Shown: positions 215 through 63,895 of the stretch, piece by piece
How positions within the stretch are numbered: the first letter of the stretch is position 1
How the letters are laid out: every line of letters begins with the position of its first letter
DNA from: Nannobrachium achirus
Taxonomy: Eukaryota; Chordata; Actinopteri; Myctophiformes; Myctophidae
Direction of reading: 5' to 3'
NCBI GenBank assembly: GCA_963921795.1
Contig: OY997655.1
Location: 13,301,230 to 13,365,229 of the forward strand
Length of the DNA stretch: 64,000 nt
Notes under the pieces: model-generated
What the model saw: the letters and a program-made list of their open reading frames with translations, nothing else
The model's database searches: none
Told to the model about the DNA's origin: nothing
Translations under genes and position numbers: made by a program

Positions 215-645
215 CAGTGGTGGAAAGTAACTAATTACATTTACTCAAGTACTGTACTTGTGTACAATTATACTTTTACTTTACTTGAGTATTTCCAATG
301 TTCAATACTTGTTGTTCTACTCCACTACATCTCAGAGGCACAATGATTTGAAAACTTTGGTTTCTAGTTCCTACTTTGTTGATTTTGATTACGAAGCATA
401 TCCACTTCAGCCCTTTGGCAATTTAAAAATAGCCGATCTACAAGCTGAGAATGCGTCGCAGATCTGCTATTTTCAAAAGATTTTAATACATTTTCATACA
501 TAATGATACTTTGGGGCATTCTGCATAATGAGTACTTTTCCTTTTGGTACTTGATACCAATACTTTTGTAGCAACACTGTAGGTTTACATTGCAGTAGTG
601 ATACTTTTACTCAAGTAAAGACATTTAGTACTTTTTCCAGCACTG
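215..645. mobile_element. Angel-like hAT-type MITE with central hairpin
   Basis: It starts CAGTGGTGGAAAGTAACTA and ends with TACTTTTTCCAGCACTG, an imperfect terminal inverted repeat. It has no coding capacity. At 425-475 it carries the recurrent hairpin: AATAGCCGATCTACAAGC on the left and GATCTGCTATTT on the right. The name Angel rests on resemblance to the teleost repeat; an 8-bp target duplication is not clear for this copy. Confidence 0.6.
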
Positions 646-851
646 CAGCCACAGGTGTGTCTTGTTAGCTCTAATTAACCAAATCAAAGGCCCTCTGCGC
701 ATGCGTGCAGCTGACAAGGAAGCCTAGTTCATTTCCAACAAGTGTGTGCAGTGCACGTGGGTCTCAGTTGGAGGAGGTGTTGGTCAACTCAAGGAGTAAT
801 AGTTTACAGATCATTTTGTCAAGTTATTACTTTACTGCATCACTGGATAAC

Positions 852-3800
852 ATGTTGAGTAGATTCAAATCCCAGCTGGTAACTCCGGTCCTCAAATGTG
901 GATTGTCCACATGGACTGAACGTGAGCTGTTCAGGCTTTTCCAAGCAAGACAGAAGATGGTGATGGTTTCCAAAAACTGTTCATCTTTGTCAGAGGAGGA
1001 TGGATGCAGAATAATGGAGGCCATGCTGATGCCACAGATCAAGTTAAACAGAACAGGTATCTATTGATGTTTGTTTTGTAGCCTTTCTTTCATCTTCAAT
1101 AAGCCCTGTTTGAACAGGAGAGAGAATGAACAATTAAAGGGAGAATTATAGGACGATTTTTAGCCTCTAATGGGGCTAACTTGCTATACAATGGAAATAA
1201 TTCCAGTCAGACAGAGAATACTTTATAGCAGTGTTTCTCAAACCTTATCATGTCAAGGACCCCCAAATTGACACACATATTAGCCCATGGACCTCCATTA
1301 GAGAAGATGTTTATGGCTTCAGCAGTGATTCTCAACCATTTTAATTTCAAGGAACCCCAGTTTGATATGCATTAGTTAGACCACGGAATCCACTTGTTTC
1401 CTAACTATGAATCATTTGTCTGGGGACCCCCTGGAGCCCTCTGAAGGACCCCTGGTTACCAATCCTTTATACCAGAGAGTTGCATATTAAAGGAACTGAG
1501 TGGAGCATACAGTAGGCTACAGGCCATGTAGCAGTTGTATCTGTAAATAGCAGGTGGACTACACAACAACACATTGTCAACAGACAACACTATAAAATCT
1601 ACTGTCACCAGTATGGATACAGTTTAAATACATTGTCCTGTAAACACATGAATAATGAATACAAATGGTACTCCATCTTTAAAGTACAGTAGCCTACATG
1701 AGCCAATAACACAATTAAACTAGCAGACAGTTGCAAGGTAAGCAAAACAATAAATGTGTAGCATTTCATGAAAGTGTCACAGGTTGCTTTCGTGTTCTGT
1801 CCTTTACAGTATACAGTACATGTCATACGGCACGGCAGTGGTTCTCAACCTGTGGGTCAGGACCCAGGGGGTCCCCAAATTATTTTGGTCACTCAACAGT
1901 AAACAAACAAAGTTTAAGTGTATAGAGGGTATATCCACATTTATTAAGTGACAATTTAAGGACTTTTTAATACCTCTAAAATGACAAATTAAACATTGGC
2001 CAAATTGTCCAATTTTAGAGGCAGGCATTGTGAAAATAGCAGATCTGCATGAAGATCATCTATTTTCACTATAGAACCGTGTTATACAAAATGTGATTCC
2101 TCAACTCTTAGTGCTCGCTCGTCAGTGTGGGGGTCCCCAGTTAAAATATGATTATTTTGGGGGTCGCTGGCTTGAAAGGTTGAGAACCACTGTCATACAG
2201 CATGGCAGTGGCTCAGGGGTGGAGTTAGCCGCAAATTGCAACGCTTTTTTTTATATGTTGAATCTAGGGTTGCAATACCTCCCATAGGCAGCCAATGCAT
2301 CAAAACAGTTTTTGGCTATCTGATTGTATTAAACAACGTCAAACTCACCAACATTGGGGCGGTATGGAAAGCTTGGAGTATCCGCTTTCTATCTGCTTTC
2401 TAACAAGTGTTTGTTGATGCATTGGCTGCCTATGGGAGATATTGCAACCCTAGATTCAACCGATTAAAAACAAATCTAGTGTTGCAATTTGTGGCTAGGG
2501 TAGAGTGGCTGCTTGACAACCAGAAGGTTCCCAGTTCGATCCTGGGCTCCGCCAGTGTTGGGTGTCGAAGTGTCCTTGAGCAAGACGCTGAACCTCCTAA
2601 TATCTCCCGATGAGCAGGTTGGTGTATGCCATTGTCATTGGTGTGTGAATGGGTAAATGTAATGCACAATCTCTGTAAATCGCCTTGGATAAAGGCACTA
2701 TATAAATGCACCATTTACCATTTACATGTCAGGGTGATAGATGAGATGGACCAGAGGTTCTAAAAACCTTTTTGGCTCAGGTCACCTCTGTAAATAACCT
2801 TTTCATCCACGGCACCTCTGAATTATTATTGTTACTCTGCAGCACCTTACACTTATGTCATCTTATGGTAGCTAAACATAAGATGACATCAATGAGATGT
2901 CGCAAGGAAAACATATCCATTTTCCATTAGGACAGATTGAAAATAATTTGAACCAGTTGAATCCCAGCATCCTTATTCTGGGGGGAACATTTACCAAAAA
3001 TAGCAGATTGTTAGGCGTAAGCTTGGAGATCAGCTGGTGTAGATTGAAAGAAAAAAAAGAAAGGGAGAAAAGAAAACGCACCAATTACAGTATCAAGAGT
3101 TATAGTGAAGTGAAGTGATATTGAAAATTTTAGAGTTTATTCTAAAAGTTTAGAAACTTTTGGAATAAGGCTACTTTTGGAATAAGGCTATGCCCAAGTT
3201 ATCTCTAGGTATAGTGGAAACTTTCCATTTTAATGGCTTCTTTAGCTTTTTGAGACAGATTTTAAAAATATTTGTTCAGTACATTTAATTAATCAGATAC
3301 ATCCCCTTGTATAAACCCATTGTAACGTCAAGCTCCATTTTAGCCTTTTTCTTCTCCTTTTATTACATTTTTAAAACCTAAAGCCTGTATATTAATTATA
3401 TTCCAAAAGTGTTGAAAGTGCAGCATTTTCACCGGAGCCAAACTATTACCTTTTAGAAATTGTACCCCAACTGATATATCAAATATCTAAATACTGAATC
3501 AAGCAACTTAAATTAACTGGTTAAATGGTTCATTCAGCAGACTCCAGGCCTACCGTATCATTCTGAAGAGATGCTTTTAAAGTGAGAACATTATCACATG
3601 GCAACACAACGCATGTTATCTAATCATTTTGTGGTTTCTTCTTCTCTCCTCATTCTCCATCCCAGATTTCGTTCCTTCCCAACTACCAGTCAAGAAACAT
3701 GTTTGTGACCAGTGTGGGAAAATGTTCAGCCAGAGAGGTAGTCTCAAACAACACCAGAGCAACCACACTGGAGAAAAGTCCCACCACTGTGACCTGTGTG

Positions 3801-4360
3801 GTAAAACATTCAGCCGGAGAGGTAATCTCAAACAACACCAGACCATTCATACTGGAGAAAAGTCCCACCACTGTGACCTGTGTGGTAAAACGTTCAGCCA
3901 GAGAAGTAGTCTCAAACAGCACCAGAGAATTCATACAGGAGAAAAGTCCCACCACTGTGACCAGTGTGGGACAAAGTTCAGTGATGGAAATACTCTCAGA
4001 GTGCACCAGAGAATCCATACAGGAGAGAAGCCGTACCAATGTCTCCAGTGTGGGAAAGGTTTCAGCCAAATGCCCAATCTCAAAGAACACCAGAGAATCC
4101 ATACAGGAGAGAAGCCATACAACTGTCAGCAGTGTGGGAGAAAGTTTCGCCATAGGACTGATCTCAACCGTCACCAGAAGATTCACACAGGAGAGAAACC
4201 GTACCACTGTGACAAGTGTGAGAAATGTTTCAGCACTGATGATGGCCTCACATCTCACCAGAGGATTCATTCAGAAAACTATTTTTTCTGTGACCAGTGT
4301 GAGAAACGGTTCAAACGCCGCAGTAACTTAAAGAGTCACATCCAACATATTCATACTTGA
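852..4360 (+). CDS. C2H2 zinc-finger protein, two coding exons
   Basis: The predicted protein has 299 residues, from exon 1 (852-1056) and exon 2 (3666-4360). Exon 1 ends AACAG before GTATCT, and exon 2 begins after CTCCATCCCAG. Both junctions are phase 1, so the join restores one reading frame. The N-terminal 68 residues match no domain I recognise. The rest is eight tandem C2H2 fingers, probably a nuclear DNA-binding regulator. The target cannot be read from sequence. The finger exon is certain. Exon 1 is inferred from phase and splice sites, and its ATG at 852 is the first in frame after non-conserved-looking sequence; further 5' exons are possible. No KRAB, SCAN or BTB domain is visible. 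Confidence 0.65.
1230..1470. mobile_element. Decayed hAT-like repeat fragments
   Basis: GTGTTTCTCAAACC, AAGGACCCCCAAATTG and GGGGACCCCCTGGAGCCC resemble decayed copies of the CAGTGGTTCTCAACC-type element. Ends are not definable. This is the only recognisable content of the first 0.8 kb of the zinc-finger intron. Confidence 0.4.
1836..2192. mobile_element. hAT-type MITE, TIR CAGTGGTTCTCAACCT
   Basis: The terminal repeats CAGTGGTTCTCAACCT and AGGTTGAGAACCACTG are clear. Internally it has GGTCCCCAAATTATTTTGG and, at 2032-2070, a shortened copy of the recurrent hairpin (GAAAATAGCAGATCTGCATG). Relatives are at 24191-24870, 32757-33130, 33983-34075 and inside 40444-40932. It is non-autonomous, with no transposase. 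Confidence 0.7.
2235..2496. mobile_element. Palindromic MITE, about 260 bp
   Basis: Two arms form a long inverted repeat. GAATCTAGGGTTGCAATACC and TAGGCAGCCAATGCATCAA on the left return as TTGATGCATTGGCTGCCTA and TATTGCAACCCTAGATTC on the right. Outer ends are GCAAATTGCAACGC and GTGTTGCAATTTGTGGC. It is non-coding. Confidence 0.65.
2497..2728 (+). mobile_element. tRNA-derived SINE
   Basis: A tRNA-like head has a B-box-like CAGTTCGATCCTGGG. A body with GTGTCCTTGAGCAAGACGCT and GTGTGTGAATGGGTAAATGT follows, then a tail with GGCACTATATAAATGCACC and repeated CATTTACC. This layout is typical of fish SINEs with a conserved central domain. I cannot name the subfamily. Confidence 0.7.
2729..3665. 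other. Zinc-finger gene intron, 3' part, no recognisable feature
   Basis: It is AT-rich. GGCTCAGGTCACCTCTG near 2776 resembles the ends of degraded hAT elements (compare 20915). Otherwise I see no coding region, RNA gene or intact repeat. The branch region and acceptor are at the end (TTCTCCATCCCAG). Confidence 0.4.
3666..4360 (+). CDS. Terminal finger exon: eight C2H2 zinc fingers
   Basis: Eight CX2C-X12-HX3-4H units follow one another, joined by TGEK linkers. Fingers 1-4 use an unusual linker end, GEKSHHC, where GEKPYxC is typical; fingers 5-7 have the canonical form. Fingers 2 and 3 are nearly identical at the DNA level, which points to recent internal duplication. The last finger has an HX4H spacing and follows a degenerate linker (SENYFF). 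The stop is TGA at 4358-4360. Candidate poly(A) signals lie several hundred bases downstream. Confidence 0.9.
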
Positions 4361-4539
4361 ATGAAGCGAAGAAGGGTTTTAACCCATGCGGTATGATGCT
4401 TTTAAAGATGTGAACCTCTAGAGACTATCATACTGTGAATTGTTGGGAAAGGTTTTCAGGGGGACAGATGTTAGTGTCTCCATCTGCACTGAGCTAGACT
4501 GGTTGGCTGATATATGAGCCATTATCATTTGAAGTTTTT

Positions 4540-4724
4540 TAAAGATTTGTTTTTTGGCTTTTTATGCCTTTATTGACAGGACAGTAGACTGACAGGAAAT
4601 GGGGAGAGAGATGGGGAATGACATGCGGCTAAGGTCGTCCGGATCGGGAATCGAACCGGCGACGCCAGCAGGCATCATAGCCTAGTATGTGGTATGCGCC
4701 TTGACCGCCAGGCCAGCGGGCGCC
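4540..4724 (-). mobile_element. tRNA-derived SINE, reverse orientation
   Basis: Read on the - strand it begins GGGGCGCCCGCTGGCCTGGC and contains a B box within the complement of GGGAATCGAACCGGCG. It ends in the complement of TTTATGCCTTTATTGACAGG. The same family lies at 23529-23716 (+) and 37152-37283 (-). Confidence 0.75.
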
Positions 4725-5205
4725 CCATCATTTGAAGTTTTTGACAGAATCGGTGTCAGCAGTTTTTCAGGCAATGTCAATTTGAATCACTTTCGACCCA
4801 TCATCTGACATTTAGGCATTTTGTTATAGGCACACATGTTCGAAGCTTTTAAAATTTGCAATTATACTTACTATATGTTCTTTTATTATTTTGCACATAC
4901 GTTCTCAAATGCAAGCTTTTATTAAATCAATGTTTTTTTGTTTTTTGGTCAAAATATCGGCCAAAACTGTACTCGGGATCGGACATCTGAATGTGAAAAT
5001 CTGACATCACCCAGAACTTGTGCCTGTTTCCTTTCTATAATAGCTGATCTAAAAGCTCACCAAAGCTCCTTTTAGCTTTGAGTTTTTTTTTTTTTTCTAA
5101 TTGTTGTATGATCACCCACGTAAATTGTTTTGTTATTAAATGTCAGTTATTTCCCCAAATGTTTTTATTTATTTACATTCTTATGTTCCAGTGTTCAATG
5201 CCTAA

Positions 5206-5211
5206 AATAAA
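5206..5211 (+). promoter_or_regulatory. Possible poly(A) signal of the zinc-finger gene
   Basis: AATAAA lies about 850 bases after the stop codon, with T-rich sequence nearby. ATTAAA-type sites also occur at about 5136. Which is used cannot be told. Confidence 0.3.
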
Positions 5212-5494
5212 TGGAAATTGTTAAAGGACGACTTCACTTTCAGCCTATCTTCATACAGTGTCTTAGGAGGGCTGTGGATGATAGTTCAGAAACCTGCCTG
5301 CATCATCGAAGAGGAATCCAAGCTAATATAAACTGCAGGCTTTATATTCCTGGAAAGTTGCCATAATGGAAGTCATTGTTCTCATGTCTCGTGTTAATTA
5401 AAAATACATTAGAAATTGTAAGAAACCTGAATAACGATAAGGTAGGCGGTCACCTTAAATCTTTTATTTCAATTTGTATGTATTATTCTCAGCA

Positions 5495-5966
5495 TTAAAG
5501 GACAACTTTGTTTTTTTACAACAAGAGTTCATATTTTAGATTGTAAGTAGAGAAAAGAAAAAGTGAGTGTTAAAATGTTTTCATTTGTTTCGTTCTATTG
5601 TTTTATCGCGTTTACCGTGCTAAAATGTGGGGCATGCGTACGCATGGGGGCATGCGTACAAGTGGCTAAATATGTATTTTTAGACACAGTAAGCCAGCAG
5701 TTTCTTTATTGCTATTTACAGTAACACTTCTAGCCCCCATAAGTCACATCCAACCATGAAAGGTTGTGTTGTATCTTGGGAATGGGCTTATTCTGTGTAA
5801 AATGACATATTTAGCCACTTGTACACATGCCCCCAACCACTGAAATAAGAATCTCCAAAACAATAGAAAGAAGTAAATGAAATAATTTTAACACTCATCT
5901 TTTATATCCTTTAATTACAATCTAAAATATTAACCCTTGTTGTAAAAAACTAAAGTTGTCATTTAA
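5495..5966. mobile_element. Palindromic MITE flanked by TTAA
   Basis: The left end TTAAAGGACAACTTTG and the right end AAAGTTGTCATTTAA are inverted repeats extending inward (ACAACAAG...TAGATTGTAA on the left, TTACAATCTAAA on the right). The TTAA flanks suggest a piggyBac-type target. An inner inverted pair surrounds GGGGCATGCGTACGC near 5631-5660. A family relative is at 25329-26324. Confidence 0.6.
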
Positions 5967-6284
5967 GGTTTAAGGGGTGGGAAGGGGAGGTCTACACAAT
6001 TAGAGAATGTATAGAATTATTTTTGAATGATAAGTGTTTTCCTCTTATCTCTCCTATGGTTCCAACATCAATACGGAATGTGGAATTGTGGACAAAATCT
6101 TATCCAATGATGACAACATATTCTAAATGTTGGGTCTGAGAAGCTAAATCTCAAGCTCAAATGCCCAATAAATAATGGACCTTGATGTGAAAAGGGTTGA
6201 AAACCATTGCACTAGCGTCATGTCCAGGATGATGTAGAGAAATAGGAACCATACACTTTCATTCACTTTTAGGGCTGCAGTATA

Positions 6285-7025
6285 TAGTCCAGGCGTTTCG
6301 GGCAGTATTTTGATGGAATCGTGCACTTTATGAAAGAAGCATGAAATTTGGCACACAGTTAGAACATGCCATATGGAACATTTTTGGCTATAGGGGCATC
6401 GCAGATTTGTCTTTGGAAACTTGTGGGAGCCAATCAAAGTTGGGCTCTCATCAATCTGGGAACCCATCGTCAAAGAAGAAAGTGCGACACCTATCGGCTG
6501 TCTCGAGAGATTAGGCTCTCATAGACTTTACTATACAGTAAAATAATACAAAAAATAAATATGCTTTAAGTAGCATGTAAGGGGTCAAACTAGGTGTTCT
6601 TCATGATTCTGAATCCAATGCAAACATTTGTTTTGCAGGAAAAACATTCCTTGGGCTAGAAACGGACCCCATAAAAGTGATAAAACTATGGTTTATTGAC
6701 GAGTCATCACTTTTCACAGTGTTGTGGCGTCCGTTTCTCGGAAAGGAATGTTTTTCGTGCAAAACAAATGCCTGCATTGGATTCAGAATCCCAAAGAACA
6801 CCTAGTTTGACCCCTCACATGCTACTTAAAGCATATTTATTTTTTGTATTATTTTACTGTATAGTAAAGTCTATGAGAGCCCAACTTTGATTGGCTCCCA
6901 CAAGTTTCCCAAGACAAATCTGCGATGCCCCTATAGCCAAAAATGTTGCATATGGCATGTTCTAACTGTGTGCCAAATTTCATGCTTCTTTCATAAAGTG
7001 CACGATTTTTGCCTGAAACGCTCGG
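6285..7025. repeat. Large foldback element, about 740 bp
   Basis: The arms are near-perfect inverted copies around a centre near 6680. GCACTTTATGAAAGAAGCAT at about 6322 returns as ATGCTTCTTTCATAAAGTGC at about 6983. CTTTAAGTAGCATGTAAGGG returns as CCCTCACATGCTACTTAAAG. The left arm has about 65 extra bases (6452-6515) bounded by GCTCTCAT. The ends resemble AGTCC(A/G)GCGTTTC. Related internal sequence recurs at 44085-44200 and 51880-52050. No long open frame makes sense as protein. Confidence 0.75.
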
Positions 7026-7492
7026 ACTAATAACAGGAGGTAGAGACAGAGGTCTGTCTGTTGTATCAAATAAATCAATAGGGATAGCCAACGGTTGACC
7101 GTGAACCGCATGCATGTACTGCGCCTCGCTGACAACGCTGAGACACACACTTGCTGACTGAGAGCACAGAGCAGGGCAGACTTTGTGCTCCTGCTAATAA
7201 ATCATTATTGTCCACTCATCATGTTGTATGTCTGTGGCAAAGATGGGAGTTTGGCCAAAATGTCCACCACAAAGCCAACATGGCATTGACCCCTGCTAAA
7301 GAGCAAACATTCAGTATACTCACTCACACCAAAATAGACACGGCACACACACATATTTTGTCATGGAGTAAAAAGTACAATATTTTCCTATGAGATGTAG
7401 TGTGGTAGAAGTAATAGTATTGAACAATGAAGACCGTACTTGAGTACATAGACTCAGTTACTTTACACAACTGCACACACACAAGAACGCAC
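7026..7492. other. Intergenic, partial Angel-like repeat
   Basis: No gene is visible. From about 7375 the words GAGTAAAAAGTACAATATTT and GTACTTGAGTACATAGACTC mark a fragment of an Angel-like MITE that runs into the CA array. Confidence 0.4.
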
Positions 7493-7495
7493 ACG

Positions 7496-7561
<66 letters not shown>
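7493..7561. repeat. (CA)n microsatellite with CG steps
   Basis: A (CA)n run preceded by alternating CG, potentially Z-DNA-forming. Open frames reading HTHT or CVCV here are artefacts of the repeat. Confidence 0.95.
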
Positions 7562-7567
<6 letters not shown>

Positions 7568-7985
7568 GAAAATAGCTCAGAGCTTGGAGATGGGCTATTC
7601 TCGCCTGTTATAGCAGAGGTTCTTATATTGGGGTCTTGGGAGTTGGGACCCCGCAAAATAATCCTATTTGAAGGGACCCCCACACCCTAAAGGATCATGG
7701 AAAGGAGTTGAGGCATTACATTTAGTTTGACCCGGTTCCACAGATAAACATTTAAAGAAAATCTACAATTTCTCAACTCAAGGCCTTGTGTTGTGAGGTG
7801 TAGATTGGCTATTGTCAACATATTTCCCTCTTTCTTATATCATTTGACAGTTTGGCCAATGTTTGACCAGTTTATATACAATAGTTTGTTGATTAATTTT
7901 TATGCAGTAATCTTTTTAGGTACTAGTAAGATGCCTCAGGGCGACATGTCGCGACAGTTTTTGGCCTCTGGCCAGTGATGTATAT

Positions 7986-8345
7986 CGGACCCATATATGG
8001 AGATCCATGTACTGTATATAGTACAGTACATTCCATTTATGCCCATACATGGAGATCCCTGTCTGAACCAGCCGCACAGATATGGGCTGTCTTCCTCCAT
8101 GTATGGGAATTCCCATATGAAGTCCTGTTAGATATTGGTTAATATTGATGACATCAGGGATCTCCATATATGGGCATAAAGGGATTCTGTTAGAGTGGTT
8201 CCCATGACACCACAACATACAATATATTGTATGCCCATACATGGAGATCCCTATCTGAACCAGCCACACAGATATGTCTTGGCCAGTGATGACATCAGGG
8301 ATCTTCATATATGGGCATAAAAGGGATTCTGGGGAATACCCATAT
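7986..8345. repeat. Interlaced direct and inverted repeats
   Basis: CCCATACATGGAGATCCCT followed by TCTGAACCAGCC occurs at about 8042 and 8234. GATGACATCAGGGATCT followed by CATATATGGGCATAAA occurs at about 8147 and 8288 and is partly the inverse of the first motif. The set forms several alternative hairpins. No family is recognised. Confidence 0.6.
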
Positions 8346-8379
8346 ATGAACTTTTACATAGGTGATATATGGTCACTTA

Positions 8380-8548
8380 TAGGCATCCCTGTTTTTACTG
8401 CTCTTTTGTATTCTCTGTTACTGTGGGTGTTTTTAATTTATTGGTGTCTTCTCTGCAACTGTAGAGCTTATTTTTTTATTGAGTATTGTGTATCTGTAAA
8501 GCACTCTGTGCATTCGTGCTGTGAAGATGTGCTATATAAATAAAGTTC
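8380..8548 (+). mobile_element. 3' tail of an L2-like LINE
   Basis: The segment ending AAGCACTCTGTGCATTCGTG and GTGCTATATAAATAAAG is typical of the 3' end of fish L2-like retrotransposons. No coding part is left. Confidence 0.55.
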
Positions 8549-8614
8549 ATTCATATCCCCTGTGACATCACAGTGATGTGTCAAGGGAACCAACACATTG
8601 ACTGTAAGAAATGT

Positions 8615-8728
<114 letters not shown>

Positions 8729-10512: not shown

Positions 10513-10564
<52 letters not shown>

Positions 10565-22970: not shown

Positions 22971-23528
22971 TTCTTTAGATTCCTGCCTGGCTCTGTAGAG
23001 GCATTCTTCTTCTGGCATAGATACTGTAGAAACCCAAGCTAAGCATAGCAACTGCACTGTACTCATACACGCCCCATGAATACACTTGAAACTGTTGTTT
23101 ACTTATGACTCTAGTGCTGGAAGTAACCACATTTACTTACAGTAGTACAACTTTGAGGTATTTGTACTGTACTGGAGTATTTCCAATTTTCAGGACTTTT
23201 ACTTCTACTCCACTACATCTCAGAGGCCAAATATTGTACTTTTACTACACTACAATTATTTGAGCACTTAGTTACTAGTTGTAGATTTAAACTATCATTA
23301 CAAAACATACATTAACCACTTAAGCCCTATATTTACATTTCTGGCGATCGCAGATCTACAAGCTCACAATGCGTCACGATGCGACGCATTGTGAGCTTGT
23401 ACATCTGCTATTTTCAAAAGATTTTATACTTTTGAAAACGTGTGCATAATGAGTACTTTCTACTTTTGATCCTCTTGAGTATATTTCAATGCCAATACTT
23501 TTGTACTTTTTCTCAAGAAAAGATTAAA

Positions 23529-23716
23529 AGGGGGTGCCCGCTGGCCTAGTGGTCCAGGCGCATACCACATATAGGCTTTGTGCAGCCTGCGGCGAGATGT
23601 GAGTTTGAATCCCACTCCTGACCACCTCTGCTGCGTGTCTCTCCCCATCTCTCTCTCTCTCTCTCTGTTTCCTGTCTATCTTCACTTAAATGAAGGCAGA
23701 AAAAGGCCCCCAAAAA
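23529..23716 (+). mobile_element. tRNA-derived SINE, plus strand
   Basis: GGGTGCCCGCTGGCCTAGTG holds an A-box-like TGGCCTAGTGG. GAGTTTGAATCCC is the B box. A (CT)n stretch and GTCTATCTTCACTTAAATGA follow. Same family as the reversed copies at 4540 and 37152. Confidence 0.8.
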
Positions 23717-23948
23717 TATCGTCACTGTCGGGCAGAAACCTTGTATCTCCAAGTTTCAAATTTGTACATTTCTTCGCAAAGTAAAGCAATGCTTCATCAC
23801 ACAAGGCCGTCGCACAAAAGTAGTGAAAACAGCGAGGCGTTGTGTGTGCTTGTAGATCGGCTGTTTTCACTAGTTTAAATCATTTAAAATGATAAATACA
23901 AAAGAAACGGTTTTGGACATACAAGGTTTCCACCCGACAACGACGATA
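23717..23948. mobile_element. CTGTCGGGC-family MITE, left hairpin arm deleted
   Basis: ATCGTCACTGTCGGGCAGAA at the left, ACAAGGTTTCCACCCGACAA at the right. Only AGCGAGGCG remains before the intact right arm GTGCTTGTAGATCGGCTG (about 23846). Confidence 0.7.
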
Positions 23949-24190: not shown

Positions 24191-24870
24191 TGTGGTTCTC
24201 AACCTTTTGCAGGCCGTGACCCCCAAAATAATCATATGTTAACTGCATGGGGACTAGGGCATTAACGACTTGTCATTTTTGCAAGTCGACTCGACTCAGT
24301 AAAAAGTAGAGTTGAAGTCGACTTTATCGCTTGATGACGTCATCACATCGTACACGACCCCCCAATTATTTTGGGGGGTCCCCAGATGATTAACTTAATG
24401 TGAAACATTGTTTTCTCACTCAACTGTAAACAAACCAATCTTCACATTTCTAAAGTGCCAATTTAAGGACCCCTAAAATGACAAATTAAACATTGGCCAA
24501 ATTGTCAAATATATCCACCTCTTTCCGAGATCTGCTATTTTCAACTTCGACTTTTGACTTCTTCTGGTGGGAGTCGACTTGTGTAATGTCGACTTCTTCG
24601 TTAATGCCCTAATGGGGACCCCCCGCCCTGACGAGCACTAAGAGTTGAGGCATTTACATTTTGTATAACACGGTTCTATTGCGAAAATAGCAGATCTACA
24701 TGCTAACAACGCCTTGCCTTGCGAGGGGCATGGTGAGCATGTAGATCGGCTACTTTCACAATTTCTGCCTCTAATATTTGACAATTTGGCCAATGTTTAA
24801 TTTGTCATTTTAGACTAGAGGTATGAAAAAGTCCTTCAAATGTCACTTTAGAAATGTGAAGACCCCTGCC
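24191..24870. mobile_element. GGTTCTCAACC hAT-type element, split by insertion
   Basis: GTGGTTCTCAACCTTTTGCA at the left. The body resumes at 24612 (ATGGGGACCCCC) and contains the hairpin 24680-24764 (AGCAGATCTACATGCTAAC ... GAGCATGTAGATCGGCT), then TCTGCCTCTAATATTTGACA. The interrupting element is 24255-24611. The right terminus is absent, ending about 70 bases before the eef2k start codon. Confidence 0.7.
24255..24611. mobile_element. MITE, TIR TAGGGCATTAACGA, nested
   Basis: Ends TAGGGCATTAACGACTTGTC and TCGTTAATGCCCTA are flanked by a perfect 8-bp duplication ATGGGGAC (24247-24254 and 24612-24619). Its own interior contains a reversed piece of the GGTTCTCAACC element (CAATTATTTTGGGGGGTCCC, ACAAATTAAACATTGGCC). 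Relative: 32551-33216. Confidence 0.85.
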
Positions 24871-24938: not shown

Positions 24939-54434
<29,496 letters not shown>

Positions 54435-54584: not shown

Positions 54585-54782
54585 AATCGTCACTGTCGGG
54601 CAGAAACCTCGTATCTCCAAGTTTCAAATTTCATCATACAAGGCCGTCGCACAAAAGTAGTGAAAACGCCTGCAATGTGAGGCGTTGTGTGCTTGTAGAT
54701 CAGCTGTTTTCACTAGTTTAATTCATTTTTAAAATGATAAATACAAAACAAACGGTTTTGGACTTTCCACCCGACAACGAAG
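54585..54782. mobile_element. CTGTCGGGC-family MITE after eef2k stop
   Basis: ATCGTCACTGTCGGGCAGAA and TTTCCACCCGACAACGA at the ends. Hairpin remnant 54656-54716 lacks most of the left arm (AAAACGCCTGCAATGTGAGG ... GTGCTTGTAGATCAGCTG). Confidence 0.7.
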
Positions 54783-54918
54783 AAAATATAACTCACGTAA
54801 TTGGCCCACTGGCTTGTCACTTGTCATGATCTGAAATGGCAAATCTTTGAGTAGCAGCAGCGCTATAGAGAGAGATCTCTCTATATCGCGCAATGGGCCT
54901 CGCAGAGGGCCTCTCCAA

Positions 54919-55583: not shown

Positions 55584-55806
55584 TAGGGATGGGACGATAT
55601 GAAACTTTAATATCACGATTATTAATAGCCGATCTACAAGCTCGATCTACAAGTGGTATCGGATATGCTTTTCGGCAAATAAAAGGTGAATTGATCCCAG
55701 TGCATGGCGGAAGACGATATCACGATAAATTAAATCTCCACGATACGATTATCGTGAGTGTTTTTTATCACGATAAACGATAATGTCGCGTATCGTCCCA
55801 TCCCTA
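55584..55806. mobile_element. TAGGGATGGGACGATA MITE, short copy
   Basis: A perfect 8-bp duplication ATATAGAG flanks it (55576-55583 and 55807-55814). Only one hairpin arm remains at about 55624 (AATAGCCGATCTACAAGCTC, then GATCTACAAG again). Confidence 0.9.
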
Positions 55807-55954
55807 ATATAGAGGCAGACAGACTTGACAGACTGACAGACTGTCAACCAGGCCAATCTGTCAAAAAGAAGAGGCCTGTTTGATTGATTCAGGATTCCAA
55901 CCTGAATGTTTAAGTTTACATTATGTATGTCTTTTTATGTTGTTCCAAATGCTG

Positions 55955-55956
<2 letters not shown>

Positions 55957-56013
<57 letters not shown>

Positions 56014-56068
56014 CGCGTGCGCGTGCGCGTGCGTGTGCGTGCGCATGTGAGCGTGTATGTGTGTGTGT
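55957..56068. repeat. (GT)n / (GCGT)n microsatellite
   Basis: GT run passing into GCGTGC repeats, then GTGTGTGC. Confidence 0.95.
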
Positions 56069-56069
56069 G

Positions 56070-56520
56070 CAGGGCCGGTTTCAGCTATAAGCAATATTAG
56101 CTTATATGGCCACAACTACTATTAGAGTTCTCAACTTCTGCCCAAACTCGACCCGACATTTAGGGTAGGGTAGAGCATAAAATGTGTGCCAGGTTAGTGC
56201 CTCGGGCTCAATGGCAAAAGAAATATATATTTTTTATTTTAGGGTTACTATTACTCTGTGATACAGTTCTCGAATTCTTTCCAAACCCAACCTGATGTTT
56301 CCGGGCCGGGTATAGGGCCTAAAATGTATGCTAACTAGTCGGGCAGGGTAGGGCCTTGGGCCGGCCCAGTTAGAAAAACATCTTTGGTTGTGGTTGCGCT
56401 GGGTATAACTGTGCCCAAATGCAGTTTTCTATGCATTTCGGAGGGGGCCTCACCCCTTGTTTTGGGGTGCCACCAAAAAAGATCTTGCTTGGGGCCACCA
56501 GAATCCTAGAACCGGCCCTG
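56070..56520. mobile_element. MITE, TIR CAGGGCCGG
   Basis: CAGGGCCGGTTTCAGC at the left and CTAGAACCGGCCCTG at the right; non-coding. The interior repeats the CTCAACTTCTGCCCAAACTC and CTCGAATTCTTTCCAAACCC units (56127 and 56266). Confidence 0.65.
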
Positions 56521-56723
56521 TCTCTATGCAGCCATTCAGAATCAGGCTTGAAAAACATTCTGAGGTAGGAAGATTTGTGATCAAAATGTTCAAATGATCA
56601 AAACGTCCAGTGGTTTAGGTGGTTATGGGAATAATTAATCTTTCTGCTTCTGTTTGTTTTTTGTCTATGTCTGTGTAATCCTGGGTTAAATCGTTGCATG
56701 TTTTATACATGCTGCTTTTGTGC

Positions 56724-57389
56724 TTAACTCATTTAGTGCCACCCCTTTCACCACTAGAGGGCGCCCAGTGGCCAGAGAAAATCCCATAGAGATATGCTGG
56801 TATATGCAGAAGCCCTGCAGCCATGACTTGCCTGAACACTTTCCTTTGTGCATGACTGCATGTACAGGAAGAGGATGAAGTTAGCTTGAAGTTAGCTATT
56901 GGCTACCAAGCATTTTAGAAGCCTTATTTTCGTCAACTTAGCCATGATTAAACCTTGCACACCTCATGCATGGGAAAAAAACAGAGAAGAATGAGCTCTG
57001 AAAAATCCAATGCAATCCTGGATTGCATTGGAGTGGATTTGTGCAGTTTGTTCACAGCTTTCAAACAAAAAAATCCGATTGGAAATCCGTTCAGGCATTC
57101 TTGAGATAATCGCCATTATGTTTTACATGTTATGTAAACAAACATGGCTGCCCTGTATGTTAGATGGGGTTGTATGGGGGTGGAACATGCAAAATCGCGA
57201 TTGAAATCATGTTCACCAGATTTGATGGGGTCCAAAAAAAAAAAAAAAAAAATTCAAAAAAATTTTTTTCAAAAAAAAAAAAAATTTTTTTTTTTTTTTT
57301 TTTTTATATCCCGAACTTGTTCGGGATAGGCACCCTGTGATACGATCATATATCCCGAACTAATTCGGGATAGGCACTCAATGAGTTAA
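56724..57389. mobile_element. TTAA-flanked repeat with long A/T runs
   Basis: TTAACTCATTTAGTGCCACC and GGCACTCAATGAGTTAA are the ends. 57234-57305 is A- and T-homopolymeric and self-complementary. Two TATCCCGAAC motifs (57307, 57351) follow. Confidence 0.65.
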
Positions 57390-57714
57390 AAGTGTTAAAA
57401 ATGGTTTATTGTTTAGTTTTTTAGTTTTTTTGGTAACTTACTATGTTTAGAATATGCCTACTCGTTGTTTGGCATGGAAGTATGAAAAGAATAATATTTT
57501 AAATAACATAAAAAGGTGTAAATAAACTTTTATTGAATTTTCTGGGTAAATTGTGTTGCAATTTCTTCTTAATCACAATAACATTTTACGTGAAGTAAAC
57601 TAGGGAAACAGTTATTTTATGGAAGGGCACACATATGAAGGAAAAGTCGGCTATAATAAAAACAAGTGCCATAAGATAACTTAATCGGTTAACTAGTTAA
57701 CTGCCATGTCATTA

Positions 57715-58542
57715 GTGGCGTTTCCATAAAGCCACTTTTTGCGCATTAACGGCTTATTCGCAAAATGTTTTATGGAAACACTTCAAAATGTGAATAAACT
57801 TTCATTATCCGCAAAAAAAATTATCCGCTTGGAGGAGGTGGATTTTGAGGCTTTATCGAATAAACTAAATGCGCATTTGTGAATGGAAACGGGTCAGACA
57901 ATAAATGCGAATAAAATATGACGTTCTGGTCCATATCGTCCTCCTATAACACTTTCCCCCGCCGCATAATTAACGTCCATTGTATAGCGTTAGCCCACAA
58001 AACAAACCGGTTGTTGCACACGGAGTGACCCTTCGTCATCACACCGTGTTGCGTGTGCCAAAAGTGGCCGTACAAGCTCACAGCAGCTCGCATCTGCGAT
58101 GCTGCAGGATGCAGTCTGTCCGGAGGACTCAACCAGGCGGCGGGGCGGCCACCCCGGCCAGGGTCGCTTGCTCTGTGCTCCCGCCGGCCGCACTTTCTCC
58201 GCGGCGGTGCCCGGTGCGTCGCGAACGGCTCTGGGTCGGGATGCGTGTGCAGCGAGTCTCAGCAGTGCCCTCACGTCTCTCGGTCTGAAAAAATCTGTCC
58301 CATGCCCCCATCCCAGCTCTGTGTGCACAGAGCTGGGATGGGGCTGATTTTTTTGCCAGTGTGCACTGTGTGCAAGCCCGCGGGAAGTGTTTACAGCACG
58401 TCGGTTAGACAGACCCAGGCAGGATCTCCCAAGAATCGCATTTCACCAGTTTAATGGAAACGGGCTAAATTTGCTTCGTCTTAATGCGTATTTCTGATAA
58501 TTCGCTTCCCTAATTCGAATACGTTTATGGAAACATGGTTAT
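57715..58542. mobile_element. MITE-like element with GC-rich core
   Basis: GGCGTTTCCATAAAGCCAC and GTTTATGGAAACATGG are the ends; CGAATAA and TTCGCA words mirror. The core 58085-58345 is CpG-rich, starts with the fragment TACAAGCTCACAGCAGC, and holds a 38-bp palindrome (58305-58342) CCCCATCCCAGCTCTGTGTG then its inverse. No protein is recognised. Confidence 0.6.
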
Positions 58543-59059
58543 TGTCACCTTCAGACCTCCACTTATGAATCTGCTCACCTCTGATTAAAATTTGGAGCCA
58601 TTGCATGAATGTAGTTGTGACACTGCATTCATTTAAATCCTGTCATGCCCTTTATCATAATCTAATCACTCATCATGCACGTCGTGTACAGTAAATGTAC
58701 TTTCTATTTCCTCATTGTTTTTCATTGTTCACAACATCACAACTATGCAAGGTCTAAGCCTTTCTCATCATGATAGAAGATATCAAGATATCACTGTGAT
58801 GGAAAGAAACTGATGAAGCTACCATAACAAAACAAAAAAAAAGTTTTAGATTTGTAAGATAGAACTGGTAGAATGTGATCTCCTCCTGACCTCAACTGTC
58901 CTCTGAAAAGCCAGCAATCTCTATAATAACCATCAGGGCAGGAATTTCATGAAGGCCATGGCCGTCGTTGCCCCTCAGTTTGGCCTTGTGCCCCTCAAAC
59001 CAATATGTGTTCTGTGTGGAGTTTGCATGTTCTCCCCATGTCCCATACCCCCAAAAAAA
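58543..59059. other. Intergenic, no gene
   Basis: AT-rich. 58950-59010 repeats the AGGCCATGGCCGTCGTTGCC motif of 52573. Nothing else is recognisable. Confidence 0.35.
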
Positions 59060-59300
59060 CATACAGTAATCCTGGTCTCTATACTGCCTCCCCCTGGCCA
59101 GCCGGGGCGCCTGATGGAGGGGAAAGGAACTGGTTGGAATAATGTGTTCCTTCCACGCGCTACGTCCTACCGGAAAAGCTCCCCCTTGTCAGGTGATAAG
59201 AAGCGGCCTGCTCACTCCTCATGCATTGAAGGAAGCATGAGCTCAGTTCAGGGAACTCCCCGGGTTGGCAGAGAGAGAGCAGCGCCCAGGATTACAGTTT
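59060..59300. repeat. Dispersed repeat, inverse of 10800-11060
   Basis: AATCCTGGTCTCTATACTGC, GGAAAGGAACTGGTTGGAAT and CCTTCCACGCGCTACGTC match the reverse complement of the tha1 intron copy. Confidence 0.65.
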
Positions 59301-61070
59301 AGGCAATTGGCACTGGGGGGAAAATGGATTACAAAATCATGGCATAAATTAAAAAATCTGATCAAACCTATGAGGCTGCTTTGACATGATGGACTGACTG
59401 CAGGGGCACCCTGGCCTTTCTCTCTCTCTCTCTTTTTAAGTCAGTGAATAAAGAAGTTGATTTGGCTGTGGCATTGACTGCGTGTGAACCTTACCTTGGT
59501 AATGTTACTGGACTTGTTGACTGGACCGGTTAACCATTTACCATCAGTGATGTTGTAAGATCTTATCAACAACATTGAATACCTCTCCACCATGATGGAA
59601 AACTGAACAGGAGAGGATATGCGCACTACCTGGAAATTATGTGGGAACGCCTACTGAGTCAGTAAACAGAGTCAGTATGGGGTCATGAGGCCATGAGGAG
59701 ATTTTACTAATAAAATGTATTGAATTGACTTTAATTGAGTGGCTTTCAGGCACTTTATTTTTGCTTTATTTTCTCAAGATTCACAGTTCAACGTTCTTTA
59801 TCATTTTATACAATGACCCCTCATCACCATGTCAGCTTGTGATGTGATGGACATTTCCATCAATATTTTATTTTTGCCACGCACATGCAAAACAAGTGGC
59901 CAATAATATTACCAGAAATTAACACATATAGGCCTAGCCCCAAAATGTAGCATATACTACAGGTATAGTACAAATGGAAGCCTGGTGTGCCATAGTGTAT
60001 ACTCCACTGCGTTACACGTATTAAAACAAAAGCTACTAAATCATTTTTGGGGAAAAGCTGATCTGCCAGCTCACAACACATTAAATGTGGCCTGGTCCAA
60101 ATATATTCCATGTCTGGGATTTCAATAATTGGGTCTTATCTGTTACTGCACAGACAGTGCTTCCATCATTGCAGGAGCAAAAGGGCCACATTTGCACGAG
60201 TGTAAAGACAATACAGAAGCGGGGAGGAGGCTTCACATCCGCTTTATCGCTTAATCATTTTCAGAGCGACCCAAACTGCATAAACGTTCCATTACAACAA
60301 CCAGTGCACAGTAGCAGAGCTCCTCCTCCGCCATCTTGGAGTGATGACGACGGTTGTTAAAAAAGCATTGTTTGGCATGAAAATAATACATATAGGCTAC
60401 AGGTGTAAATACACTATTTATTGCATTACCTTGGTAAATTGTGTTGGTTTGTGATTTCTTCTTAATCACAATGATATTTTAAATGAAGATTTAAACTAGA
60501 ACAATGTACCACAGTTAATGGAAGGGTATACTTACGAATATGGACGAATGATATATAAGAGTATAATAAAAACAAGTGCTTGATTGACTGAATACTTTAT
60601 TAGCAGTTATCATAGGAAAAGCACAGGGCAATCCAATTCAGATACAAGGTCTACAAATAGGATTTAAACCCGAGAAAGCACTATGGCATTTACATTGAGG
60701 TCCTTTTGTAGTCAATTCATAGAGTCATTGCATGCCATACCAGACAAATATACACAATAGGCCTACTATGCAAACAACATCATATATAAACAGTCAGAAA
60801 TCTGATATTTTTGTTTCAACTTGAAACCACCACCACCTGTAAGTGATCCCTGAATACATTTTAAATCTTTATTCGCAGACTTGGGTACAAATACATAAAG
60901 AGGAACATAGTATTGCAACAACTTTTGCTGTTGCAATTATTTACACAGGAATAGTAGCAGCTGAGATGTAGTACTTGTACTTGGGTTTATAGAAGGACTC
61001 CATTATGGTATGCTTCTTCTTCTGACTACAGTTATTAGTACAGTATGTTTTGTTCAAGGTTTCTTTATTT
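59301..61070. other. Intergenic between eef2k and the C1q gene
   Basis: Mostly AT-rich unique sequence. 60050-60085 has a decayed hairpin arm (AAAGCTGATCTGCCAGCTCA). TTCTTCTTAATCACAATGATAT (60458) recurs from 57566, suggesting a shared repeat at 57400-57690 and 60380-60590. No gene is seen. Confidence 0.4.
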
Positions 61071-61083
61071 TATTTTATTATTT

Positions 61084-61370
61084 ATATCCACCTCTTTCCG
61101 CGGGAATTTACTGGAGAATTTTTTGCACCACACTTCCGGTTAACAGCAGACATACAAGCTCATGTTGCGTCGCAGATGCAGCCGTTGTGATCTCGTAGAT
61201 CACACTCGGCTGCGGCGCCGGAAGCTCCGTCCAAACTACTGCGCAATGCACTTTGGGATGTTGGAAAGTTGTGGATATATATTCACAAAAGCATACAAGA
61301 AGTATTTTACCCCCCCACCTCCCGAAAGTTCCCGCTCCGAAAGAGCCACAACCCTGGTTGTACAGAATGT
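61084..61370. repeat. GC-rich segment with degenerate hairpin
   Basis: GCAGACATACAAGCTCATGT, TGCGTCGCAGATGCAGCCGT and TCTCGTAGATCACACTCGGC form an imperfect version of the recurrent hairpin at 61143-61210. CCGCGGGAATTTACT and GAAAGTTCCCGCTCCG flank it. Confidence 0.45.
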
Positions 61371-61477
61371 TTTTAACCAATTAACCCTGAGTTATACTTC
61401 ATCATACAACAGTATGAGTTTTCACCTCTAAAGACATTCCCAGGCTAAAATGCTACTGTGAAATCGATTTCCCTCCC

Positions 61478-61779
61478 TCACACTGTAAACAGCATGTGTC
61501 CACTGAACGTATTATGGTGATTAAAACTGTCATGTACCCGTGCATTAGCCCAGAGTTCCACCCAGACCAGATCCCCTGCTTCCAGCAGAAGTGAGGCTCC
61601 ATTAGACACGTTTATGGTAGGGTAGGTTGATAGCTTGCTATGGGTAGGTTGATGTCCACTGGCAATGACCACAAGTTTGCCGTTTTTAACCAAGACAGCT
61701 GATGTAAACTTTGACGATCCTGGACCATCGACGACAATACTGAACTGGAAGACACCTTTCAATGGTGCAGTAAAGAAAC
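61478..61779 (-). CDS. C1q gene last exon
   Basis: The second half of the C1q domain, with the family motif [12 protein letters not shown] and a final FSGHMLFTV. Acceptor CAAACCCAG on the - strand. Confidence 0.92.
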
Positions 61780-63221
61780 CTGGGTTTGGTAAACACATGG
61801 GTTTAGTTTAGAGATTTACTTTGGCTTTCCCAATTTAACTTCCAAAGGAGCAAATCTGAGTGAACAAATGGAAATATGACATATCTGTTTGTTTCATTTT
61901 TGTACAGATGCATGGAATCTATTATGCAAATGTAATTATGATTATCTCATATGATTAAGTGATTGTAAATGATTGTGACAGTTATATACAAACATAACAG
62001 TTTTCATGGTGTTACTGTATCTATAACTGTATGAATCACTATACCTGTATTTAGATTATATGCATTGCCAACATTGGTGAAGACATGTTTGTAGATCAGC
62101 TTAGTGTGAACATTGTAAGGTCCTATGACTACAGTTCCAGATTCCACAAGTGAGGCTGAGAAAGCCACTCGTTTGACTGGAAAACACACGTGACATCAGA
62201 GTTAACTTCAAACTATTACGAAAAGAATCGTCAACTAAATTTTTTCACTGACGAAAACTAAATAAACACTAAGCTACTGTATGATGACAATTTTGTCTAC
62301 AAATAAAAACTAAAATATTAGGGAGGGCCAAATGGAGAAGAGATCCAGTAGAACTAAAAGACAAGCCATTTATTGTTCGGTTGTGCCGGTTGCGCTTGGG
62401 TGGCGCACTCTGAAAATAGCAGATCTACAAGCTCACAATGCTTGCAGATCTTGTAGATCAGCTATTCAGTATGCAACCAAGTGTAAAATCTGCCATTACG
62501 ACACCATCAAGGCACCACCAAAATTATTTTTTGATGACAAAATCAACTGTAGATTTAGTCGACTAAAACTAGACTAAAATAAAATGCATGAAGTGCAATG
62601 TAATTATATAACTAATAACTATTGTTGCAAATTGCAATCCAGTATTAGTCTATTAATAACACAAGTTCATCTTTCTGTCTTACCTTCATTCAGCTTCTGT
62701 AGAGACTGTACCTCTTGCTCTGTTGCTTTTGATCTGCTTTCAATGGTTTCAAGAGCAACTGTGAATATATAACATTAAAAAAACAGTCAAGTTTTTTGTT
62801 ATAGGCCTACTTATAGAGTGCAGTGACAGCTCCAGAGAATTTTGACTGGGGAGGCTATGGGGGGCTGGCTTTTTTAGACTTTTAGGCTCATGAATTTTGG
62901 CAACAAACAACACTGAATAATACAAATAGACAAACGAGATTCTCTGGCTTAAGGTATTGATAACTGAACAGACCAGATCATTGGCAGATGCCAGCTTCAA
63001 ATCTGTGGACTGTAGGTGATGGGACAGGGTTTTTGTGAGGCTGAAGGCGCTTCCCAGCATAGTGACATGCAGATACAAACTGTCCATAGTATGTTTAGTA
63101 TATTAACTAAGAAGTTACCCCCGATAGAGTGTATAGTCAATAGAATTACCTTTCATTCGACTTCCACTGTCCTTCACTGCTTTTAGCTCCTGCTGGGTCC
63201 GTTGCAGGTCAACACGCTGCT
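61478..63221 (-). CDS. C1q-domain protein, 3' exons (5' end outside window)
   Basis: On the - strand the exons are 63221-63150 (or an older, longer version), 62758-62684, 62176-62045 and 61779-61478; all internal junctions are phase 1. The first two encode a helical stalk ([40 protein letters not shown]). The last two encode a C1q head: [40 protein letters not shown] and FSGHMLFTV with a TGA stop. Such fish C1q-like proteins are secreted and trimeric. Start, signal peptide and any collagen part are not in view. An AATAAA (- strand) near 61070 may end the transcript. A MITE interrupts the stalk exon at 63225. I cannot say which C1q-like or cerebellin-like paralogue this is. Confidence 0.85.
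62045..62176 (-). CDS. C1q gene, first half of head domain
   Basis: [20 protein letters not shown] to AYNLNT. Acceptor GTGTTTTCCAG, donor GTATAG. Confidence 0.92.
62205..62585. mobile_element. ACTAAAACTA-type MITE with hairpin 62411-62467
   Basis: AAATTTTTTCACTGACGAAA and AGATTTAGTCGACTAAAACT mirror each other. The hairpin is AATAGCAGATCTACAAGCTC ... GATCTTGTAGATCAGCTATT. It lies in the intron between two C1q gene exons. Confidence 0.65.
62684..62758 (-). CDS. C1q gene stalk exon
   Basis: [24 protein letters not shown], heptad-like. Acceptor ATATTCACAG, donor GTAAGA; 75 nt, phase 1 on both sides. Confidence 0.85.
63150..63221 (-). CDS. C1q gene stalk exon, part 3' of MITE insertion
   Basis: [23 protein letters not shown]; donor GTAATT. 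The likely acceptor is ATGCAG, formed by MITE end plus target duplication; it gives a 72-nt exon, phase 1 on both sides. Confidence 0.7.
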
Positions 63222-63224
63222 CTG

Positions 63225-63895
63225 CATTGGTGGAAAAAAGTACTCTCATTGTTTACTTGTCTTACTAAGTAAAAGTATCAAATGTAGAAATACTCTGTTA
63301 GGGTGCCCTCACACCAAAATACCTATGAGAGTGGAATCTGCGTTCCGCCGATTGCATCTCAATGATAAGGGAGCGTTTTTTGCAGAAATCCTCTGCTGGC
63401 ATGAAACCGCTTCACTCTCATTGAAATGCATTGGCGGAACGCGGATTCCACTCTCATAGGTATTTTGGTGTGAGGGCACCCTTACAAGTAAAAGTCTAGG
63501 AAATGATTTGTGTAAAAGTATTGGTATTGGTATCAAAATGTACTTAAAGTACCAAAAGTCGTTTCACAAATGTTCAAATATATAGACCTATAAAAATCTT
63601 ATGAAAGTAGCAGATACAAGCTCACAATGCGTGACACATTGTGACCATGTAGATTGTCTATTTTGGAATGGCCAAAATGTATATGGGTGGTTATATATAC
63701 TGTATGTTTTGTAGCCTACTAATAATGAAAAACAAGTACCTTAACTAAAGTTATAATGGTAGTGGAATAAAAGTACAATATTTGCCTTTGATATACAGTT
63801 GGGGCGTAGAAGTGTAAGTACTGAAAATAGGAAATGGCCTACTCCAGTAAAGTAAACAAATACTTTAACATACCGGTAGTTACTTCACACCACTG
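63225..63895. mobile_element. Angel-like hAT MITE inserted into C1q stalk exon
   Basis: CATTGGTGGAAAAAAGTACT and GTAGTTACTTCACACCACTG are the ends. CTGCTCTG is duplicated on both sides (63217-63224 and 63896-63903). It contains a second palindromic element (63299-63485, ends AGGGTGCCCTCACACC / GGTGTGAGGGCACCCT) and hairpin 63600-63664. Confidence 0.9.

Follow-up and report, generated by a model that had tools for sequence, protein, structure and literature searches.

The 64,000-nucleotide stretch of Nannobrachium achirus DNA analysed here (hereafter the window; contig OY997655.1, positions 13,301,230 to 13,365,229, from an assembly of 1.66 Gb in 564 contigs) is dense in miniature inverted-repeat transposable elements (MITEs), many of which hold the same short hairpin. 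A first-pass annotation had reported hairpin arms of the form ATAGC(A/C)GATCTACAAGC and GCTTGTAGATC(G/T)GCTAT about once every 2 kb. We found the two arms at 30 and 34 places in the window, respectively, when up to four substitutions were allowed, and a profile built on five window copies gave 41 hairpins at ≥8 bits, 33 at ≥15 bits and 23 at ≥30 bits; the reversed window gave none at any of these three cut-offs. The hairpin is confirmed as a real feature of this DNA, and with 33 copies at ≥15 bits the reported density is correct.

Hairpins in the window and across the genome

A near-perfect hairpin (TAGCAGATATACAAGC..GCTTGTAGATCGGCTA; 13835..13914, + strand, 89.6 bits) lies in a 392-bp MITE with ends TAGGGCTGTCAC..GTGACAGCCCTA (13735..14126, + strand), whose 8-bp target duplication agrees at seven of eight bases here and is exact in five of the seven other copies of this MITE. 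The TAGGGATGGGACGAT MITE, a 422-bp element running from TAGGGATGGG to CCCATCCCTA (28719..29140, + strand; duplication 7/8), contains a hairpin at 28957..29036 (+ strand, 87.1 bits). Another TAGGGATGGG MITE (35687-36117, duplication 5/8) has one with a shortened tip (35941..36005, + strand), and a short member of the same type (55584-55806, exact 8-bp duplication) keeps a left arm at 55625..55641 (+ strand). CAGTGGTGGAAA MITEs carry a hairpin with a lengthened tip at 16779..16874 (+ strand; host 16606-17113, no duplication seen) and one at 63602..63664 (+ strand; host 63225-63895, exact 8-bp duplication), and the same flank family includes a tip-shortened hairpin at 425..476 (+ strand) and another at 23343..23416 (- strand). 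Profile matches at 24678..24759 (- strand), 32892..32934 (+ strand, partial) and 40645..40724 (+ strand) belong to the CAGTGGTTCTCAACC flank family.

Four hairpins lie in CTGTCGGGC MITEs: two in a CAGC..GCTG form, at 12866..12939 (- strand; host 12807-13049) and 46738..46817 (+ strand; host 46642-46893, AT on both sides), one with an arm mostly missing, at 23798..23873 (+ strand; host 23718-23947, AT on both sides), and a partial one at 54663..54716 (+ strand; host 54586-54784). One flank of the hairpin at 26962..27056 (no strand assigned) is also CTGTCGGGC; at 26964-27002 one of its arms, and not the other, is lengthened at the base by a tandem array of AGCCGATCTACA (3.2 copies), as if by copying slippage. 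The hairpins at 13280..13346 and 62410..62466 (both + strand) lie near the hosts that the first-pass annotation had listed under ACTAAAACTA, and have flank clusters c18 and c22 in common. A distinct subfamily with the tip GCGCGGCACCGAGTGCCGCGC forms an inverted pair (31100..31172, + strand, and 31426..31500, - strand); the two hairpins lie 255 bp apart within 31088-31512, and relatives agree in one flank and not in the other. The degenerate hairpin at 61142..61201 (+ strand, 27.7 bits) has no flank relative among the loci sampled. At 48728-49297 a 570-bp MITE with ends TAGGGGTG..CACCCCTA and an exact 8-bp duplication has no hairpin of its own and adjoins a degraded one at 48674.

The hairpin is a self-complementary palindrome some 85 bp long, whose 63-bp middle is conserved and has the form TAGC(A/C)GATCTACAAGCTCACAACGC...GCGTTGTGAGCTTGTAGATC(G/T)GCTA. 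For stem statistics we used 76 of 87 full-length matches, those in which both arms were found; 43 of the 76 have a middle of exactly 63 bp, with a perfect or near-perfect stem, and these gave 36 unique sequences with flanks, a set whose counts are not independent, as it includes related copies. Folded as single-stranded DNA, window positions 13834-13917 reach -43.9 kcal/mol, compared with a shuffle mean of -10.0 (z -15.9). Most stem positions are paired in 0.8 to 1.0 of the 36 sequences. At several of them the pair varies among Watson-Crick types (T-A and C-G at the first position; A-T and G-C, G-C and C-G, T-A and G-C nearer the tip), so changes in one arm tend to be matched in the other. Mismatches are frequent at one position (A-G 11, C-T 6, versus A-T 13, C-G 4, of 36).

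The arms described in the first-pass annotation are present, but the palindrome does not end at ATAGC: AAAATAGC is common to nearly all groups, as is the AAAA/TTTT step outward of the TA. Past AAAA the letters differ among groups yet mirror each other. With one vote for each of 37 groups, mirror matches at positions 5 to 8 numbered 25, 19, 23 and 24 (p = 1e-6, 0.003, 3e-5 and 7e-6, one-sided binomial tests), where positions 15 to 30 set the background at about 0.29; matches are down at this level by position ~12, and the symmetric stretch thus ends some 11 bp beyond the TA. Twelve copies with no sampled flank relative gave 5 to 7 mirror matches of 12 at positions 5 to 11 and 1 of 12 at position 12, so in both kinds of copy the outer stem stays symmetric out to the same point.

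Beyond the window, 20 arbitrarily placed 10-kb loci (188,384 non-N bases) contained 77 hairpins at ≥15 bits and none when reversed. Scaled up to the genome, this sample would correspond to roughly 0.6 to 0.7 million copies, an estimate and not a count. One 26-base arm pattern (with A or C at one place) had 39,148 exact matches genome-wide (19,626 forward and 19,522 reverse), and the same pattern read backwards had none; arm patterns had no exact match in the viral and prokaryote collections. An RNA family was rejected as the identity of the hairpin: an Rfam scan of the window returned a tRNA as its sole match at the gathering score (19382-19463, - strand, 61.7 bits). A 259-codon reading frame at 3581-4360 contains repeated C2H2 zinc-finger motifs, recognised by eye.

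Host families, target duplications and exchanged cores

To describe the hosts, we clustered the flanks of 122 of 155 profile matches (≥18 bits; locus L001, which lies in the window, was left out) and obtained 23 clusters of at least two flanks plus 85 single flanks. Ten host families were aligned, and their flank consensus pairs were compared by 60 shuffles each, excluding the first 12 bases beside the hairpin. Three of the 190 pairs had z above 4 and eight had z above 3. One of the three pairs the left and right flanks of CTGTCGGGC with each other, this element being a palindrome itself. The right flank of family f7_8 is homologous to the left flank of TAGGGATGGG (z 5.8, ~130 bp aligned), and families f3_16 and f4_15 have a common right flank (z 5.1) and different left flanks; f4_10 joins the latter group by clustering only (consensus z 1.5). 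On this count the ten host families form seven groups, with no between-group pair above z 4, although weaker links at z 3.4 to 3.6, such as that of the CAGTGGTGGAAA right flank with the f7_8 left flank, mean that some groups may be distant relatives. The claim that the hosts are unrelated thus holds for most flank pairs, which have no detectable similarity, but some hosts are partly related.

The same clustering overturned the view that two window hairpins have no host. Those at 37468..37522 and 49665..49728 (both - strand; reported at 37473 and 49667) are members of families f7_8 and f13_14, with six and three sample copies, respectively. An identical 63-bp hairpin occurs at L012:2225, in a CAGTGGTGGAAA host, and in five TAGGGCTGTCAC copies; the flanks of these copies are absent from the list of similar pairs. 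This comparison between families left out 10 of 48 copies, which had no family label.

Target duplications are of two kinds. Four hosts (TAGGGCTGTCAC, TAGGGATGGG/TAGGGATGGGACGAT, CAGTGGTGGAAA and CAGGGGCGTCAC) include copies with an exact 8-bp duplication, and the CAGTGGTTCTCAAC host has a 7/8 duplication in two hairpin-bearing copies (L024 and L025). In the CTGTCGGGC family, 8 of 13 copies are bordered by AT at either end and read AT-ATCGTC..GACGAT-AT. A duplication is not visible in every copy of each host family. The first-pass annotation was right that the duplications differ, but it had set TA against 8 bp; we found AT in place of TA, with no TA duplication seen and the ACTAAAACTA host not checked for one. 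The five hosts with 8-bp duplications resemble hAT MITEs, with ends that are probably hAT-like, and act as carriers of the hairpin, which is found in an AT-duplication MITE and alone as well. A scan for hosts with 8-bp duplications found them at 44 of 122 hairpins versus 95 of 381 random positions, and at 2 of 27 hairpins with both flanks single; it says little because MITEs are dense here. Three CTGTCGGGC elements (L028:216, L028:5901 and window 54586) have common sequence just outside their ends (CCAACAAAGTAA or CCGACAAAGTAA on the left, ATATAACTCA on the right), which suggests that a larger repeat carries this MITE along.

One family shows an exchanged core. The element at L033:2191-2771, which is bordered by an exact 8-bp duplication, ends like a member of the CAGTGGCGTCA family but holds the hairpin in its middle; relatives in L031, L006 and L022, 86 to 91% alike, lack the hairpin and have a palindrome of their own (GGTATGGCAACATG..). 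The hairpin core of L033 brings with it about 30 bp of the right flank of the CAGTGGTTCTCAACC MITE, and matches window positions 40637-40744 at 90.7% identity (108 bp) and L035:752-872 at 89.3% identity (121 bp). Beyond the hairpin and this flank, the replaced stretch matches no known source. The chimera has been amplified: a 262-base query gave 1,408 first-look candidates, and all 40 matches scored span at least its bases 3-262 at 93 to 100% identity, and L038 holds a second copy with a duplication that agrees at seven of eight bases when compared by eye. The same host ends thus occur with two different cores, one of them accompanied by donor flank (L033 and L038, as opposed to L031, L006 and L022). 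This direct with/without pair shows clearly that MITE families also exchange their cores.

Hairpin-less copies and lone hairpins

The search for empty sites, a check that the first-pass annotation had proposed, was run and proved misleading. In joined-flank queries, 38 of 40 scored matches crossed the junction for TAGGGATGGG, and for CAGTGGTGGAAA 25 of 40 began at query base 16 or before. Of 24 junction-crossing matches listed in the fetched sample we read four places: L028:5870 and L026:3560 retain pieces of the hairpin, window position 23700 is a partial hairpin, and 44360 lacks the hairpin together with part of its flank. Empty sites were rejected as proof of insertion, since four copies read per family and 100 listed short-gap copies of each include many deletion remnants.

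Short-gap copies were defined as those with 0 to 30 bases between the outer stems (100 listed of 180 for TAGGGATGGG and 100 of 192 for CAGTGGTGGAAA); the patterns demand exact outer stems, and copies without them are invisible to this search. Among the listed copies, 98 of 100 TAGGGATGGG and 95 of 100 CAGTGGTGGAAA sequences are distinct, a figure to which point mutations contribute. At least seven consecutive hairpin bases are kept in 52 and 68 of the 100, respectively (shuffled strings, 1.8% and 2.6%). The commonest remnants among these listed copies, which come from the whole genome, are TAGCCGATCTGCTA (3 of 100) and TAGCAGATCGGCTA (4 of 100); both fit a deletion between short repeats, GATCT or GATC, of the two arms. 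Exact collapse was found in one of the 100 listed copies of each family. Among the copies read, L030 has the exact collapse TTTGCCAAAAAATATTTTTTGGCAAA within a host bearing an exact 8-bp duplication, L029 has the same minus two A, and L033 has TTTGAAAATATTTTCAAA in a CAGTGGTGGAAA-type copy.

Central deletion is the usual fate of a long palindrome, and most hairpin-less copies resemble secondary central deletions that vary by locus. Because the remnants vary from locus to locus, the hairpin appears to have been present before amplification in the two host families examined, and to have been lost by independent central deletions. This argues against taking hairpin-less copies as proof of insertion.

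The case for a unit independent of MITEs comes from hairpins outside them. Five hairpins without a sampled flank relative were selected, and their joined flanks were searched genome-wide. For L027:4820, L012:5009 and L004:2458 the joined flanks matched their own locus only, with one first-look candidate each. L027:4820 is an almost intact unit that lies 111 bp before an ATG; a 32-residue frame follows, then GT, as at a splice donor, and we take this frame to be the start of vps36. The other two lie in repeats. L027:8834 had 1,096 first-look candidates, of which 40 were scored; two matches crossed the junction, and the one that was read (L040) holds a remnant. L015:8966 had 38, and none of 54 matches crossed the junction. 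Three of the five tested family-less copies thus occur alone in DNA that looks unrepeated, and lone copies with unique flanks, one of them before a gene start, indicate that the hairpin is not always tied to a MITE. The repeat around L015:8966 (L015:7392-9576) recurs in L042 with 99.9% identity over 2,185 bp; this hairpin-carrying repeat is at least 2,185 bp long, and the longest reading frame listed in the two loci has 115 codons.

Origin and spread of the hairpin

The first-pass annotation had offered two alternatives, a mobile hairpin and cores exchanged between families, and we find evidence for both: lone copies and identical hairpins in different hosts for the one, and a single exchange family for the other. 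We favour, at about an even chance, an independently mobile palindrome that is carried by MITEs. The hairpin would be a repeat unit of its own. It occurs alone, and its lone copies probably arrived by insertion and are not what remains of a carrier since lost. It is carried by MITEs with 8-bp and AT duplications, which would have multiplied it by their own transposition, and recombination or template switching would move cores from one MITE family to another, as in the one family described above. After host insertion, individual copies would decay by central deletions of their own, as the varied remnants suggest. The 8-bp duplications lie at the ends of the hosts and none was seen at the hairpin (lone flanks compared by eye), so the unit by itself does not show this hAT feature.

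How the hairpin enters a site can be proposed from its edges. It would most likely be copied across a break or a stalled fork, without a transposase of its own, the copying starting and ending on short AT-rich inverted repeats at the base of the hairpin that serve as microhomology on both sides. Such entry would need a symmetric target, create no duplication and account for the mirror symmetry outside the TA. The outer stretch may equally be part of the unit, with both arms drifting together, which fits the same numbers. The earlier suggestion that the hairpin prefers cruciform tips is in the same position: it is compatible with the symmetric flanks, but an outer stem that is part of the hairpin, with co-evolving arms, would give the same symmetry.

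Several known systems resemble parts of this picture. Angel- and Tol2-type fish elements have palindromic cores, although the literature passages searched did not mention this; the likeness would lie in the palindromic middle. The GC clusters of yeast mitochondria (such as GC42) are short, gene-less, mobile palindromes that merge and shuffle, with absence sites that are partly clean and partly remnant-bearing (PMC4478555), which makes them similar to the hairpin; they differ in being mitochondrial, 42 bp long and bordered by AG or ACT direct repeats, whereas the hairpin is nuclear, ~85 bp, far more numerous, mostly in MITEs and has no direct repeat seen at its edge. Dispersed hairpin-forming repeats in sponge mitochondria, thought to invade intergenic DNA repeatedly, are likewise similar but mitochondrial, and the abstract makes no link to MITEs (PMC2800124). 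For Galileo, of the P superfamily, defective or recombined copies have been discussed as products of abortive gap repair or template switching (PMC4168063), a mechanism by which a core can be altered and both ends kept; there it concerns copies of one transposon, whereas here families with unrelated ends are involved. Galileo also prefers a 15-bp palindromic target (PMC4168063), and Tol2 has a weak palindrome-like target consensus (PMC2753552), so a palindromic target is nothing unusual in a cut-and-paste element. None of six 14- to 15-base arm strings was found in the literature text searched, and among the titles and abstract openings retrieved on MITEs with exchanged or palindromic cores we recognised no publication describing the hairpin; the parts seen of PMC9587614 and PMC2874221 have no bearing on it. 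It is possible, though doubtful, that the hairpin is a gene-less nuclear counterpart of the GC clusters that is copied, through its own inverted base, into AT-rich, TA-centred sites with neither transposase nor target duplication, using MITEs of any superfamily as carriers.

Core exchange alone might account for the pattern without an independent unit. The hairpin would have been born once, in one MITE, and spread by gap repair or template switching, with core replacement helped by the palindromes in both partners and lone copies being leftovers of old hosts. The two versions of the CAGTGGCGTCA family, one of them with the hairpin and ~30 bp of CAGTGGTTCTCAACC flank, the flank that f7_8 has in common with TAGGGATGGG and the common right but different left flanks of f3_16 and f4_15 all argue for exchange. 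We nevertheless consider exchange as the sole process unlikely, though worth serious attention, given that most family pairs lack detectable similarity past the palindrome base and that three of the five tested family-less copies have unique flanks, one of them almost intact beside a gene start. Rather improbable is an ordinary tiny TA-target MITE of the Tc1/mariner type, TA-[GCMGATC...GATCKGC]-TA, repeatedly nested in larger MITEs. TA does flank most copies (T-A in 27 and A-T in 31 of 36 unique sequences at the two positions), and the collapses in L030 and L033 speak for such an element; exact collapse is rare among the listed short-gap copies of both families, however, and the symmetric flanks past the TA go unexplained. 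C-G replaces T-A in 8 of the 36 sequences, so this pair behaves as stem and not as duplication, and TA as the boundary of the unit is weakened accordingly. To our knowledge, moreover, the hairpin ends are unlike those of Tc1/mariner elements. Descent of all hosts from one element, with the hairpin alone conserved since it serves transposition, would be in keeping with the weak flank similarity of eight pairs in 190 and with hAT-like 8-bp duplications in five hosts. It seems very improbable to us: hairpin losses occur freely, the hairpin-less relatives of one host have a different palindrome, and shared ancestry is already contradicted by the CTGTCGGGC host, with its different ends and AT duplication, and by lone copies with flanks unique in the genome search, unless those prove secondary.

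Several points weigh against an independently mobile unit. No true pre-insertion site was identified among the hairpin-less copies read and listed. The 48 and 32 of 100 listed TAGGGATGGG and CAGTGGTGGAAA short-gap copies that lack a 7-base hairpin stretch are indistinguishable from complete deletions, and may include a minority of real unfilled sites. The five lone candidates were picked by hand and not at random, and two of them (L027:8834 and L015:8966) lie in repeats, so that having no relative in the sample can mean that a family was unsampled. The genome search also skips very common words. We therefore compared the 150-bp flanks of the three lone copies with 324 kb of fetched sequence, where they matched only themselves or loci from the same place, while two host controls gave 19 to 36 matches per flank; this answers the caveat for the sample only. 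In the printed flanks of the lone copies, inspected by eye, no duplication adjoins the unit. A lone copy could also be the remnant of a very old host, which the intact state of L027:4820 makes less likely.

If transposon families that differ in their ends do exchange palindromes, MITE 'families' would have to be seen as mosaics, and a DNA segment could rise to be among the most abundant repeats of a genome by using several transposases one after another. Whatever its origin, the very many copies of one palindrome, a large number of them with a deletion scar of their own, form a natural data set on palindrome breakage and repair in an animal germ line.

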